64,000 nucleotides of DNA from Rhodospirillaceae bacterium. GTDB lineage: Bacteria; Pseudomonadota; Alphaproteobacteria; UBA8366; Aestuariispiraceae. Location: positions 186,001-250,000 of the forward strand of contig PAQY01000022.1 in the NCBI GenBank assembly GCA_002709955.1. The letters are read 5' to 3'. Positions 2,321-5,201 of the stretch are shown here, piece by piece. The position numbers and the translations under genes were made by a program. Every line of letters starts with the position of its first letter. Positions within the stretch are counted from its first letter, which is position 1. The notes below the pieces were generated by a model. The model had not been told where the DNA came from, did no database searches, and was given only the letters and a program-made list of their open reading frames with translations.

Positions 2321-3175
2321 ATGCCACGCACAGTTTATATCAACGGTCGCTATTGCGCGCCGGAGGACGCCACCGTATCAATCTTTGATCGGGGCCTGTT
2401 GTTTGCCGATGCGATCTATGAAGTTGCAGGCGTGATTGATGGCAAGCTGCTGGACTTTGCCTCACACATGCAGCGTCTGGATCGGTCCCTGGTCGAAATG
2501 CGGATGCCTGCCCCTCTGACCCATGACGAAATCCTGGCCGTGATGCGCGAATTGGTGAAACGCGATCAAGTGGAAGAAGGTCTGGTCTATATGCAGATCA
2601 GCCGTGGCTCCACCGGTGATCGGGATTTCCTTCCTCCAGAAGGCATGAAACCCACGGTTTTCATGTTTGCGCAGCACAAGAGCGACGTCACCCGCCAGGA
2701 ATTCCAAAACGGCATAAAGATGATCAGCGCGCCTGATATCCGCTGGGGCCGCCGCGACATCAAAACCGTGGGCCTGATGGGCAGCGTATTTGCGAAATGG
2801 ACAGCAAAAGAAGCGGGCGGTGCAGAAGTTCTGATGCATCAAGATGGCTATGTCACCGAAGGCGGCGCGACCAGTTTCTATATCATCAAGGACAACACCA
2901 TCATCACCCGCCCCCTATCGAATGACATCCTGCATGGCTGTACCCGCAAGGCGCTGCTGAAAATCCTGGAAGACGGGGATATCGGGCTGGATGAACGGCT
3001 GTACACACTCGACGAGGCCCATAGCGCCGATGAGGCCTTTATCACTGGGGCGTCTACCTTTGTCTGTCCGGTAGTGCAGATTGATGACGCTGTTCTGGGC
3101 ACCGGCAAACCCGGCCCGGTCACGCGCCGCCTGCAAGACATCTATATGGATTTCATCCACAAGGACGCGATCTAA
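2321..3175 (+). CDS. D-amino-acid transaminase (class IV aminotransferase)
   Basis: A 284-residue fold-type IV PLP enzyme, which would convert a D-amino acid and 2-oxoglutarate to a 2-oxo acid and D-glutamate. The Schiff-base lysine is K148 in the DIK motif, and E180 in VTEGGATSFY is the residue that supports the cofactor pyridine. The YINGRY start and the FDRGLLFADAIYEV stretch near residues 22-35 are family hallmarks. It follows the carbamoylase by 9 bases with AGGGGAT as ribosome site. Branched-chain aminotransferase and aminodeoxychorismate lyase share this fold; the D-amino-acid reading rests on overall pattern and on the carbamoylase next door. Confidence 0.87.
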   Translation: MPRTVYINGRYCAPEDATVSIFDRGLLFADAIYEVAGVIDGKLLDFASHMQRLDRSLVEMRMPAPLTHDEILAVMRELVKRDQVEEGLVYMQISRGSTGDRDFLPPEGMKPTVFMFAQHKSDVTRQEFQNGIKMISAPDIRWGRRDIKTVGLMGSVFAKWTAKEAGGAEVLMHQDGYVTEGGATSFYIIKDNTIITRPLSNDILHGCTRKALLKILEDGDIGLDERLYTLDEAHSADEAFITGASTFVCPVVQIDDAVLGTGKPGPVTRRLQDIYMDFIHKDAI

Positions 3176-3190
3176 GATCACCGTGCCTTT

Positions 3191-3460
3191 CACTAGTGTG
3201 GTGCGCGGTTATTTGGGATCGACCAGGACGCTGTTTGCGGTGCTCCGGTTAGGAGCTTTTCGCGAAGCGATGCGGGGCATCGCAAGCGGAAGGCGACGCG
3301 GCCCGGAGCGCCGCAAACAGCGCCTTTGGTCCCTTTATCGGCCTGTCGGACGGCGTCGAGGGCGCTGGACGATGAACCACATCGCCTGCACGCTCTCTTC
3401 TAGCCGACAGGCCGATAAAGAGATCCTGGTGATCCCAAATAATCGCGCACCACACTAATG
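3191..3460. repeat. nested inverted-repeat element with three-way-junction layout
   Basis: A gene-free stretch of about 270 bp is made of inverted repeats. The outer arms are 3191-3228 and 3424-3460 (cores GTGTGGTGCGC and GCGCACCACAC; TTTGGGATC and GATCCCAAA), near-perfect complements. Inside lie two further stems: 3229-3248 with 3303-3322 (19 of 20 paired) and 3333-3349 with 3404-3420 (17 of 17 paired). A small hairpin GCGATGC-GGG-GCATCGC (3267-3283) sits in the first inner loop. As RNA or extruded DNA this would form a closed stem carrying two long arms. It could be a non-autonomous mobile element, a decayed insertion sequence or a structured RNA. I find no coding signal and no second copy in the window. 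Confidence 0.8.
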
Positions 3461-3569
3461 TCTTGAGAATGATAATTTACACCGCTTTTCTTATGGATTG
3501 CGATTGCGGAACTGTCAGTGTGTCGTCTGTTTGATCTAACGCTCTGAACCGTCACCATATGAGGGTCCC

Positions 3570-5201
3570 TTGGCCTCGCATTCCTCCGATTACGATTACA
3601 TTATCATCGGGGCTGGATCAGCCGGATGTGTCCTGGCAGATCGCCTGTCAGCGGATGGTCGCTATACTGTTTGCCTGCTGGAAGCGGGCGGCACGGATCG
3701 GCGCTTTTGGGTCACGGTCCCTCTGGGCTATGGCAAGCTGTTCTATAACAAGGCCGTAAATTGGTGCTACACGACCGAGCCCAGCAAGGGCCTGGGTGGG
3801 CGTCCTGATTTCTGGCCGCGCGGCAAGCTGCTGGGTGGTTCCAGTTCGATCAACGCCATGGTCTATATCCGCGGCCAACAGCAGGATTTCGATGGTTGGG
3901 CAGAGGCTGGCAATCCCGGTTGGGATTGGGAAAGTGTGCTGCCCATTTTCAAGGAAATGGAAACCTATGATGGGGGGTCCAATCACTTTCGCGGGGACAA
4001 GGGGCCTTTGCATGTATCCCGCGCCGATCGGGATGCCCATCCATTATGCGCCGCCTATTTCGAGGCAGGTCAGGCATTGGGACTGCCCCTGAATGAGGAC
4101 TTTAATGGACCCAGCCAGGAAGGTGTTGGCTATTATCAAGTGACGACCCGAAAAGGCCGCCGCCATTCATCGGCAAAGGCCTTCCTGCGCCCCGCCATGG
4201 GTCGCAAGAATTTGACCGTGCTGACCGGGGCTCAGGCGAAACGCATTCTATTTGACGGCAAACGGGCGACCGGCGTGGTGTTTCAACAGGCCGGGCGGGA
4301 AAAGACCCTGCATGCCGGGCGGGAAGTTATTGTTTCCGCCGGTGCCATCAACTCCCCGCAATTGCTGCAATTGTCCGGTGTTGGACCAGCGGACCTGTTG
4401 CGCAAGCATGGCATAGACCCCGTGCTGGACCAGCCGCAGGTCGGGGCCAATTTGCAGGATCACCAGGGGCTGAACATCACCTATAAGGCCCGCATCCCGA
4501 CCTTGAACACAATCCTGCGGCCCTGGTGGGGCAAGCTATGGGTTGGCATGCGCTATCTGCTGAACCGATCCGGCCCGTTGAGCCGCAGCATCAATCAGGC
4601 GGGCGGATTTTTTCGCACCGATCCCAGTCGCAACCGCCCGAATATGCAGCTCTATCTGCAAGCCTTCTCAACCCTGCAACCCCGGCTGGGGGAGCGGCCA
4701 TTGCTGACGCCAGATCCGTTTCCAGGGTTTTCGCTGGGCCTGTCAAACTGTCATCCGCGCAGCCGGGGATATCTGGAAATCACGTCCAATGATCCCTTTG
4801 CCCCGCCGCGCATTGTCGCCAATCCCTTTGAGGATGAGGAAGACATGCAGGAAATGCTGCAAGGGGTGAAATTCGTGCGCCAACTGGCCCAACATCCCGC
4901 CCTGGCCGCCCTGATTGAGGAAGAAATTGTCCCCGGCCCGCAGTGCCAAAGCGATGAGGACCTGATCGAAGACATCCGCCAGCGCGGCGGCACGGTTTTC
5001 CACCCCAGCGGCACCTGTCGCATGGGTCCCGACCCCGCCGCCGCCGTTGTGGATTCGCGGCTGCGAGTCCATGGATTGCAGGGATTGCGGGTCATCGACC
5101 TGTCCATCTATCCAACCATCATCTCCGGCAACACAAATGCGTCCGCGATGATGATCGGCGCAAAAGGGGCGGCAATGATTCTGGAAGACGCGCAGGCGTA
5201 A
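3570..5201 (+). CDS. GMC family FAD-dependent oxidoreductase (choline/alcohol dehydrogenase-like)
   Basis: A 543-residue glucose-methanol-choline oxidoreductase. The FAD dinucleotide motif GAGSAG lies near residues 14-19, the GMC signature (GGSSSINAMVYIRG) near residues 91-104, and the catalytic His-Asn pair is H478 (HPSGTC) and N521 (GNTNAS). Family members oxidise primary alcohols to aldehydes or acids. The start is a TTG with GAGGG four bases upstream; no in-frame ATG fits better. It follows the inverted-repeat element and not the transaminase directly, so it may have its own promoter. BetA-like choline dehydrogenase is the nearest general label, but no betaine gene is nearby, so the substrate is open. 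Confidence 0.9.
   Translation: MASHSSDYDYIIIGAGSAGCVLADRLSADGRYTVCLLEAGGTDRRFWVTVPLGYGKLFYNKAVNWCYTTEPSKGLGGRPDFWPRGKLLGGSSSINAMVYIRGQQQDFDGWAEAGNPGWDWESVLPIFKEMETYDGGSNHFRGDKGPLHVSRADRDAHPLCAAYFEAGQALGLPLNEDFNGPSQEGVGYYQVTTRKGRRHSSAKAFLRPAMGRKNLTVLTGAQAKRILFDGKRATGVVFQQAGREKTLHAGREVIVSAGAINSPQLLQLSGVGPADLLRKHGIDPVLDQPQVGANLQDHQGLNITYKARIPTLNTILRPWWGKLWVGMRYLLNRSGPLSRSINQAGGFFRTDPSRNRPNMQLYLQAFSTLQPRLGERPLLTPDPFPGFSLGLSNCHPRSRGYLEITSNDPFAPPRIVANPFEDEEDMQEMLQGVKFVRQLAQHPALAALIEEEIVPGPQCQSDEDLIEDIRQRGGTVFHPSGTCRMGPDPAAAVVDSRLRVHGLQGLRVIDLSIYPTIISGNTNASAMMIGAKGAAMILEDAQA

Follow-up and report, generated by a model that had tools for sequence, protein, structure and literature searches.

Bacterial miniature transposable elements (MITEs) are generally regarded as remnants of insertion sequences (ISs) and are defined by their ends. 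RUP (repeat unit of pneumococcus), a MITE of 107 bp linked to IS630-Spn1, is presented in the available part of a review as a small intergenic repeat with TA-containing insertion sites and IS630-family-like ends, and that part reports no further signature of structure or function (PMC2229807). For IS630/Tc1-mariner elements, insertion at TA targets and recognition of ends of about 24 bp are described in the accessible portion of PMC2170065. The CGTC- and GTAG-tagged REPs are palindromic units of 20–40 bp that often occur as inverted pairs; according to the portion of PMC3733652 at hand, the CGTC super-family is mainly alphaproteobacterial, and a few REP families lie within longer palindromes. 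Br-REP1 of Bradyrhizobium, which comprises three palindromes, was first found between convergent genes (PMC5082802, as far as its available text goes).

The element analyzed here has a cloverleaf-like layout and resembles each of these systems in part. Like RUP, as the available part of the review describes it, the element is a small intergenic repeat at TA sites with IS630-family-like ends, but it measures 264 bp rather than 107 bp, contains two conserved and covarying inner hairpins, and is spread through a bacterial class. It shares with ISY100-like members of the IS630/Tc1-mariner group the insertion at TA with TA duplication and ends of the kind of which about 24 bp are recognized in known elements, whereas IS630/Tc1-mariner elements carry a transposase gene and the cloverleaf element does not. 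The tagged REPs are also palindromic and often paired in inverted orientation; their units of 20–40 bp contrast with hairpins of 94 bp, and TA-duplicating terminal repeats are not reported in the consulted portion of PMC3733652. The three palindromes of Br-REP1 recall the three stems of the element, but the printed consensus of Br-REP1 differs (CCGGAATCTCGAGATTCCGG), and TA ends are not reported in the available text of PMC5082802. The literature searched, part of it seen in excerpt and with most subscription journals outside its scope, contained no description of the cloverleaf element, which may have been published under a different name.

Location and stem structure of the element

The element was found in a window of 64,000 nucleotides (the whole stretch of DNA that was analyzed), where it sits in a 394-bp gap between the end of an aminotransferase class IV gene (positions 2321–3175) and the start of a GMC oxidoreductase ORF (3570–5201); a CN_hydrolase gene occupies positions 1370–2311. 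An earlier note on this DNA had described three inverted repeats, and all three were found at the block by an inverted-repeat check: an outer repeat (3191–3220 with 3431–3460, 30 nt, 93%), the arms of hairpin 1 (3229–3248 with 3303–3322, 20 nt, 95%), and the arms of hairpin 2 (3330–3349 with 3404–3423, 20 nt, 95%). The stem noted earlier at 3333–3349/3404–3420 is the perfect 17-bp part of the 20-nt stem of hairpin 2. The pairing of the outer arms over 3191–3460 stands as well, but its outermost positions are not the ends of the element. Homologues and empty sites place the limits at 3194 and 3457 (TA ... TA, 264 bp), which leaves 3191–3193 and 3458–3460 as flank.

In its canonical orientation, with hairpin 1 before hairpin 2, the whole element lies on the + strand (3194–3457), as judged from homologues and from an empty site with a single TA in a related genome (G002). 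The left terminal inverted repeat or outer arm (TAGTGTGGTGCGCGG..., 3194–3228, + strand) and its right counterpart (...CGCGCACCACACTA, 3424–3457, + strand) were both delimited by the inverted-repeat match and by homologues. Their outermost dinucleotides are the left TA (3194–3195) and the right TA (3456–3457) of the target duplication, to which no strand is assigned and which correspond to the single TA at relatives' empty sites. The left outer arm opens with a TAG that is usable as a stop codon. Between the outer arms, on the same + strand, lie hairpin 1 (3229–3322, 94 bp), a junction spacer that separates the two hairpins in the element alignment (3323–3329), and hairpin 2 (3330–3423, 94 bp). 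Hairpin 1 consists of a 20-bp arm, a 54-nt structured loop, and a second 20-bp arm, according to the repeats, the folding, and model R2. Hairpin 2 is homologous to the reverse complement of hairpin 1, according to models R1 (a covariance model of hairpin 2) and R2. Column identity in 23 elements delineates the conserved loops of hairpin 1 (3249–3302, + strand, TTAGGAGC...GCGATGCGGGGCATCGC...GCGACGC) and hairpin 2 (3350–3403, + strand).

The folding energy of positions 3170–3480 amounts to −188.8 kcal/mol, compared with −109.3 ± 5.6 kcal/mol for shuffled sequences (z = −14.2), and none of the 100 shuffles was as low. In the whole 64-kb window, perfect 16-mer inverted repeats with starts at most 300 nt apart occur only in the element block, as two overlapping matches that both lie inside hairpin 2. 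The folding of shuffled sequences and the existence of dispersed copies rule out chance palindromes and bear out the earlier claim that three such stems cannot be chance.

Dispersal, target sites, and terminal repeats

The genome from which the window derives (4.23 Mb, 24 contigs) contains 18 copies or large pieces of the element, of which 11 are full, 5 are truncated by contig ends, and 2 have a single hairpin. The element is thus a short (264 bp), non-coding sequence with terminal inverted repeats and many dispersed copies, as is typical of MITEs. The many dispersed copies at unrelated sites bear out one suggestion of the earlier note, that of a palindromic repeat family. A second suggestion, a miniature transposable element, is borne out by the copies and also by the 2-bp TA duplication at empty sites and from the IS630-like ends described below. 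The observations named in advance as fatal to the idea, a lack of any other copy and of conserved pairing, with arms that drift freely, were not made; copies exist, and the arms covary strongly.

Searches at the DNA level (E ≤ 0.001) gave matches in 13 of 39 genomes, including the source genome. Among the genomes drawn, model R1, which in searches of more than 40 genomes was run with stricter filters that lose weak matches, detected the hairpin in 19 of 43 from the order (with each of the four families drawn represented), 38 of 385 from the class, and 7 of 398 from the phylum, all 7 being members of the same class; the source genome is included in each of these counts. An exact core pattern was found in 52 stretches, with record titles that are mostly Rhodospirillales, other Alphaproteobacteria, or Proteobacteria, and with Marivibrio halodurans among the records. 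Exact-pattern matches in Paenibacillus, Planctomycetota, and Leucobacter look like chance and had no match to R1, to which 20 of the 52 loci were given. A record titled Bacteroidetes bacterium B34T3L8 (locus L119) carries a genuine element (96 bits), owing to either a binning error or transfer. Plasmids gave no match to the L047, L053, or window elements, phages gave none to the L051 or window elements, and viral contigs gave none to one exact pattern, all by searches that depend on rather close DNA similarity and would miss divergent copies. Most copies are 260–270 bp long, and some have insertions and reach up to 304 bp. The two copies L029 and L030 of genome G004 have a common left flank and different right flanks, which points to recombination between copies or to an assembly join.

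Alignment of flanks showed that relatives have a single TA at empty sites where the carrier has TA-element-TA. The empty site of L017 is clean in two relatives. Those of L014, where one end base is lost, and L015, where the left flank has diverged, agree with a single TA, and the window copy likewise corresponds to a single TA in G002, with a few differing bases adjoining the site. Four copies (L012, L013, L016, and L024) lie at the same place as the relatives' sites, but base-by-base agreement is absent. G004 lacks an insertion at the sites of L012, L014, L015, and L017. Some old insertions are common to the source genome and G004 (L013/L032 and L024/L031); in the latter, the copy of the source genome is 119 bp shorter. 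The window block is, hence, mobile DNA, and empty sites identify its target-site duplication as TA. The sequence YTAR was found at 28 of 34 distinct target sites, 11 of them CTAG, and the remaining sites comprised 3 CTAT and 3 ATAT; G never preceded the TA. IS630 itself reportedly prefers CTAG targets, and insertion at TA with a 2-bp duplication and a preference for YTAR/CTAG is the behavior expected of the IS630/Tc1-mariner group.

To compare the ends, the IS630 catalytic domain DDE_3 was sought across the order, where it is present in 13 of 43 genomes, and TA-bounded inverted repeats were sought around the matches at 15 loci. Seven IS630 elements, and thus 14 ends, were usable; five loci had no pair, the pair at L219 did not span the match, and L218 and L226 repeat L217. 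All 14 ends, selected by us and in the case of L215 as the look-alike of two equally good pairs, match some family end at 15–20 of 26 positions, and 11 of them do so at 17 or more, with two ends shifted in register by 2 and compared over 24 positions. For comparison, the 95% and 99% points of the null distribution were 14 and 17, and random TA-starting sites reached 17 in 1.1% and 15 in 2.3% of cases. Examples of such pairs are TAGAGCATGATGATATTAGACGG (IS630 of the source genome) with TAGAGCATGATGATTTCATATGG (element of G012) and TATACCACCGAGTATTGAGCGAGACTCA (IS630 of G025) with TATACCAAGGAGCGTTGATAGTGACTCA (element of G022). The end type of the window copy (TAGTGTGG...) had no partner among the IS630 ends compared. 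Because of the TA duplication, the YTAR targets, and the IS630-like ends, we consider that the element works as, and very probably is, a MITE of IS630/Tc1-mariner type, in other words a non-autonomous DNA transposon.

An autonomous parent within the same genome was considered and, on pattern scans of the source genome and of G022, rejected. A pattern scan of the source genome, allowing up to two mismatches, did not find an autonomous element with the ends of the window copy (TAGTGTGGTGCGCG), and pattern scans with the window end in the source genome and with the end of G022 in that genome revealed no paired ends at IS length. The ends of the DDE_3 element in the source genome (L217, positions 1399–2468, on C7; 1,070 bp) differ from those of the window copy (TAGAGCATGATG...). 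The transposase frame of this DDE_3 element changes several times, and the DDE_3 match is split likewise in L218 (G004). When R1 was applied to 20 IS630 loci, no hairpin was found within the IS630 elements, and matches were confined to L220 (G012, contig 11), where an element copy of the TACCA end type directly adjoins the end of an IS630 remnant. An autonomous form built around a lone hairpin was also rejected, as the lone-hairpin loci viewed turned out to lie at contig ends, to be partial copies, or to carry a divergent hairpin 1.

Among the genomes of the order, many of which are drafts, DDE_3 is absent from 11 of the 19 that bear the element, including G022 with its 28 full-length copies, and present in 5 of the 24 that do not. 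Since the presence of DDE_3 does not track that of the element, in many carriers any helper would be missing, lost, not assembled, or of a different kind. A resident IS630 or Y1 transposase was rejected as a required partner, as neither tracks the presence of the element. Most likely, IS630-type transposases help the element to move, the mobilizing enzyme being inferred. An IS630-family transposase supplied in trans would recognize the first ~25–28 bp of the outer arms, excise the element, and join it into a TA, preferably within YTAR, whereby the TA would be duplicated.

Movement could also be of an entirely different kind, namely that of a REP/BIME-like single-stranded DNA element in which a tyrosine (Y1/RAYT) transposase recognizes the inner hairpins by their flanking TAG and CGTC. 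Each hairpin module does have TAG at one foot and CGACG at the opposite foot (CGTC when read from the complementary strand), the modules are inverted like the REP dimers in the available portion of PMC3733652, and the copy-rich genome G022 has Y1_Tnp genes (three matches above the cut-off). However, neither long terminal inverted repeats nor the duplication of a TA belong to that mechanism, a Y1_Tnp match is absent from the source genome and from 12 of the 19 genomes of the order that bear the element, and the stems of the element are unlike the 8–9-bp CGTC stems in that portion of PMC3733652. We regard this mode of movement as very improbable.

We give just as little credence to membership in the CIR (Caulobacter methyltransferase-associated) family or a similar alphaproteobacterial family of intergenic repeats. 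CIR elements of Caulobacter and Brucella, here compared by description only, resemble the element in being alphaproteobacterial and intergenic and in having two arms, which in CIR are joined by a linker; according to the available part of PMC2229807, they are about 110 bp long, have GANTC at the terminal loop, and lack an outer 5′–3′ stem. The element is 264 bp long and has an outer stem. Of the 21 GANTC sites counted in 26 elements, most (16) fall in the right outer arm and 2 in hairpin loops; 9 of the 26 elements have no GANTC at all. Another palindromic repeat, roughly 105 bp long (TTTAGAGCAAATCCCGAGCGAACGGAATCG...GCATGATGCTCTAG), was seen at L028 (source genome, C7, near 154.8 kb; query positions 2867–2975), to the left of a solo end. 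This repeat has many copies in G004 and G002 and contains GAATC; it might, at a guess, be a member of a CIR/RIME-type family.

Covariation and conservation of the hairpins

Covariation was assessed in a set of 23 full, non-redundant elements with lengths close to 264 bp, from which L052, L054, and L057–L059 were excluded. Over 84 consensus pairs, 91.3% of cells were paired, compared with 73.6% after shuffling, a percentage that is favored by the derivation of the structure from the same 23 sequences. Changes on both sides occurred in 55 of the 84 pairs, and all three stems covary. Cells with double changes numbered 345, compared with 114 in shuffles (none of 500 had as many) and 63–81 in controls with slid partners. 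We do not think that the double changes are explained by the way in which the structure was derived, although related sequences can exceed shuffles.

Mean column identity was 0.65–0.66 in the outer arms, 0.70–0.77 in the hairpin arms, and 0.81–0.84 in the loops. In the 23 elements, loop 1 (mean column identity 0.84) has 20 invariant positions out of 54 and loop 2 (0.81) has 25 out of 54. Across the compared regions, 59 positions are invariant, and 45 of these lie in the loops. The inner hairpins are more conserved than the ends, which is not expected of a plain MITE and counts against that reading. Loop 1 and the reverse complement of loop 2 agree at 27 of 54 positions without gaps (equaled in 0 of 5000 shuffles), and R1 and R2 each match both hairpins, on opposite strands, in distant genomes. 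Hairpins 1 and 2 are inverted copies of one module, for which 48 hairpins yield the consensus GG.TAGGAG.G...GGCGATGC-GG-GCATCG..A...CGACGC..TCC.

Hairpins also behave as units. In two copies, whole 94-bp hairpins are inverted in place (L020, positions 1138–1231, and L035, positions 1037–1130; about 95 and 97% identity). Genome G022 has 36 end pairs within 400 bp and no nearest end pair between 400 and 2,600 bp. Twenty-eight of the 36 are spaced at 260–263 bp (two hairpins), and the other eight at 55, 136, 157, 157, 158, 168, 176, and 193 bp. A spacing of 157–158 bp fits one hairpin, and R1 locates a 94-bp hairpin centrally in the copy of 158 bp; the spacing of 55 bp fits zero hairpins. Some copies thus seem to have lost hairpins as units of ~103 bp; the lengths in between are irregular. 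A tree of 51 cores, weak at 26 of its 48 inner branches, requires 15 changes of end type (minimum 12; mean 29.7 after shuffling), which implies that ends and core mostly descend together. Locus L144 is a possible exchange of end type.

Strong covariation of stems is also what would be expected if, as the earlier note allowed, the element were a functional structured RNA, that is, a cis-acting 3′-UTR element or a small RNA that spread by transposition and kept an RNA role on one strand. An almost invariant G-U pair at the base of hairpin 2 (in 22 of 23 elements), a lower RNAalifold energy for the + strand (−106.6) than for the − strand (−96.2), and the location of many copies near gene ends would fit such a role. 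Selection for an RNA on one strand should make G-U pairs exceed A-C mismatches on that strand, and here the data diverge from the expectation. Single mismatches comprised 72 G-T and 61 A-C in 38 elements that share ancestry and were folded without G-U (L055, L024, L025, and L059 left out), and one-sided changes in 14 near copies comprised 24 G-U and 32 A-C. Nor is the better strand consistent, as 16 near copies favor the + strand and 23 distant ones the − strand (p about 0.05 each). A promoter- or terminator-like site is absent from window positions 3150–3600, and Rfam gave no match at the gathering score for positions 2500–4200, where the one match below the cut-off was mir-49 (21.2 of 60 bits, E 0.35). 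The direction of neighboring genes has no clear bias, with 29 toward, 21 away, and 28 unclear among 78 sides by a crude count. L055, which is unbounded, was omitted from the counts of mismatches, energies, stop codons, target sites, and gene directions. With covariation present but no consistent wobble bias between strands, and with whole hairpins inverted in L020 and L035, the suggestion of a structured RNA is not supported, and we consider it unlikely.

Since there is no consistent strand bias and hairpins are inverted or lost whole, structure at the DNA level fits better than a functional RNA, and we infer that the structure acts and is maintained at that level. In L017, there are two adjacent mirrored changes, as expected from copying of one arm onto the other. 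Unlike ordinary MITEs, the family carries a fixed cargo, the two inverted modules of ~94 bp with their strongly conserved loop. The module, as a cruciform or single strand, may extrude or fold at replication and pair the ends, and the folded module may expose its loop to a candidate protein partner, while the arms would stay matched via arm-to-arm conversion and selection on active copies. A more far-reaching reading, which we offer tentatively as possible rather than probable, is that of an ancient, alphaproteobacterial, structure-addressed selfish DNA. In it, the defining and selected part would be the inverted hairpin pair with a protein-recognized loop, the outer repeats would change with, or be swapped to suit, whichever IS630-type transposase is available, and arm-to-arm copying would keep the palindromes matched.

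In genomes scattered over a bacterial class, the inside of the element is conserved while its ends diverge. The conserved inside points to an unrecognized protein–DNA (cruciform) interaction or copying process. The three covarying stems are a case of covariation that is not evidence for RNA; RNA-discovery pipelines would probably label the element a structured RNA, and caution is needed.

Stop codons and solo ends

As the ends read TAG...CTA, a gene whose TAA or TAG stop codon receives the element still terminates in TAG, and landing at gene ends could therefore be harmless. The terminal TAG often provides the stop of an adjacent gene. It closes an in-frame open frame of at least 100 codons at 23 of 74 ends, a count raised by open frames that arise by chance in GC-rich DNA, as the 11 and 8 cases in the other two frames show. 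In the window, 16 of 85 YTAR sites outside gene interiors lie in stop codons (by crude gene calls), and part of the excess of TAG stops therefore reflects the availability of targets. TAG ends would be a simple route for mobile elements into stop codons without harm.

The source genome also contains solo left ends of 14–36 bp from which the rest of the element is absent (e.g., L069, L071, L072, L073, L026, L027, and L077). Of 13 solo-end candidates retrieved, 6 lie on frames closed by the terminal TAG and 2 in other frames. One candidate, L078, looks like a coding coincidence, and solo ends were for this reason excluded from the evidence for mobility. Several solo left ends start at a TAG that closes a long open frame, and the solo left ends are perhaps deletion remnants that were kept for their stop.
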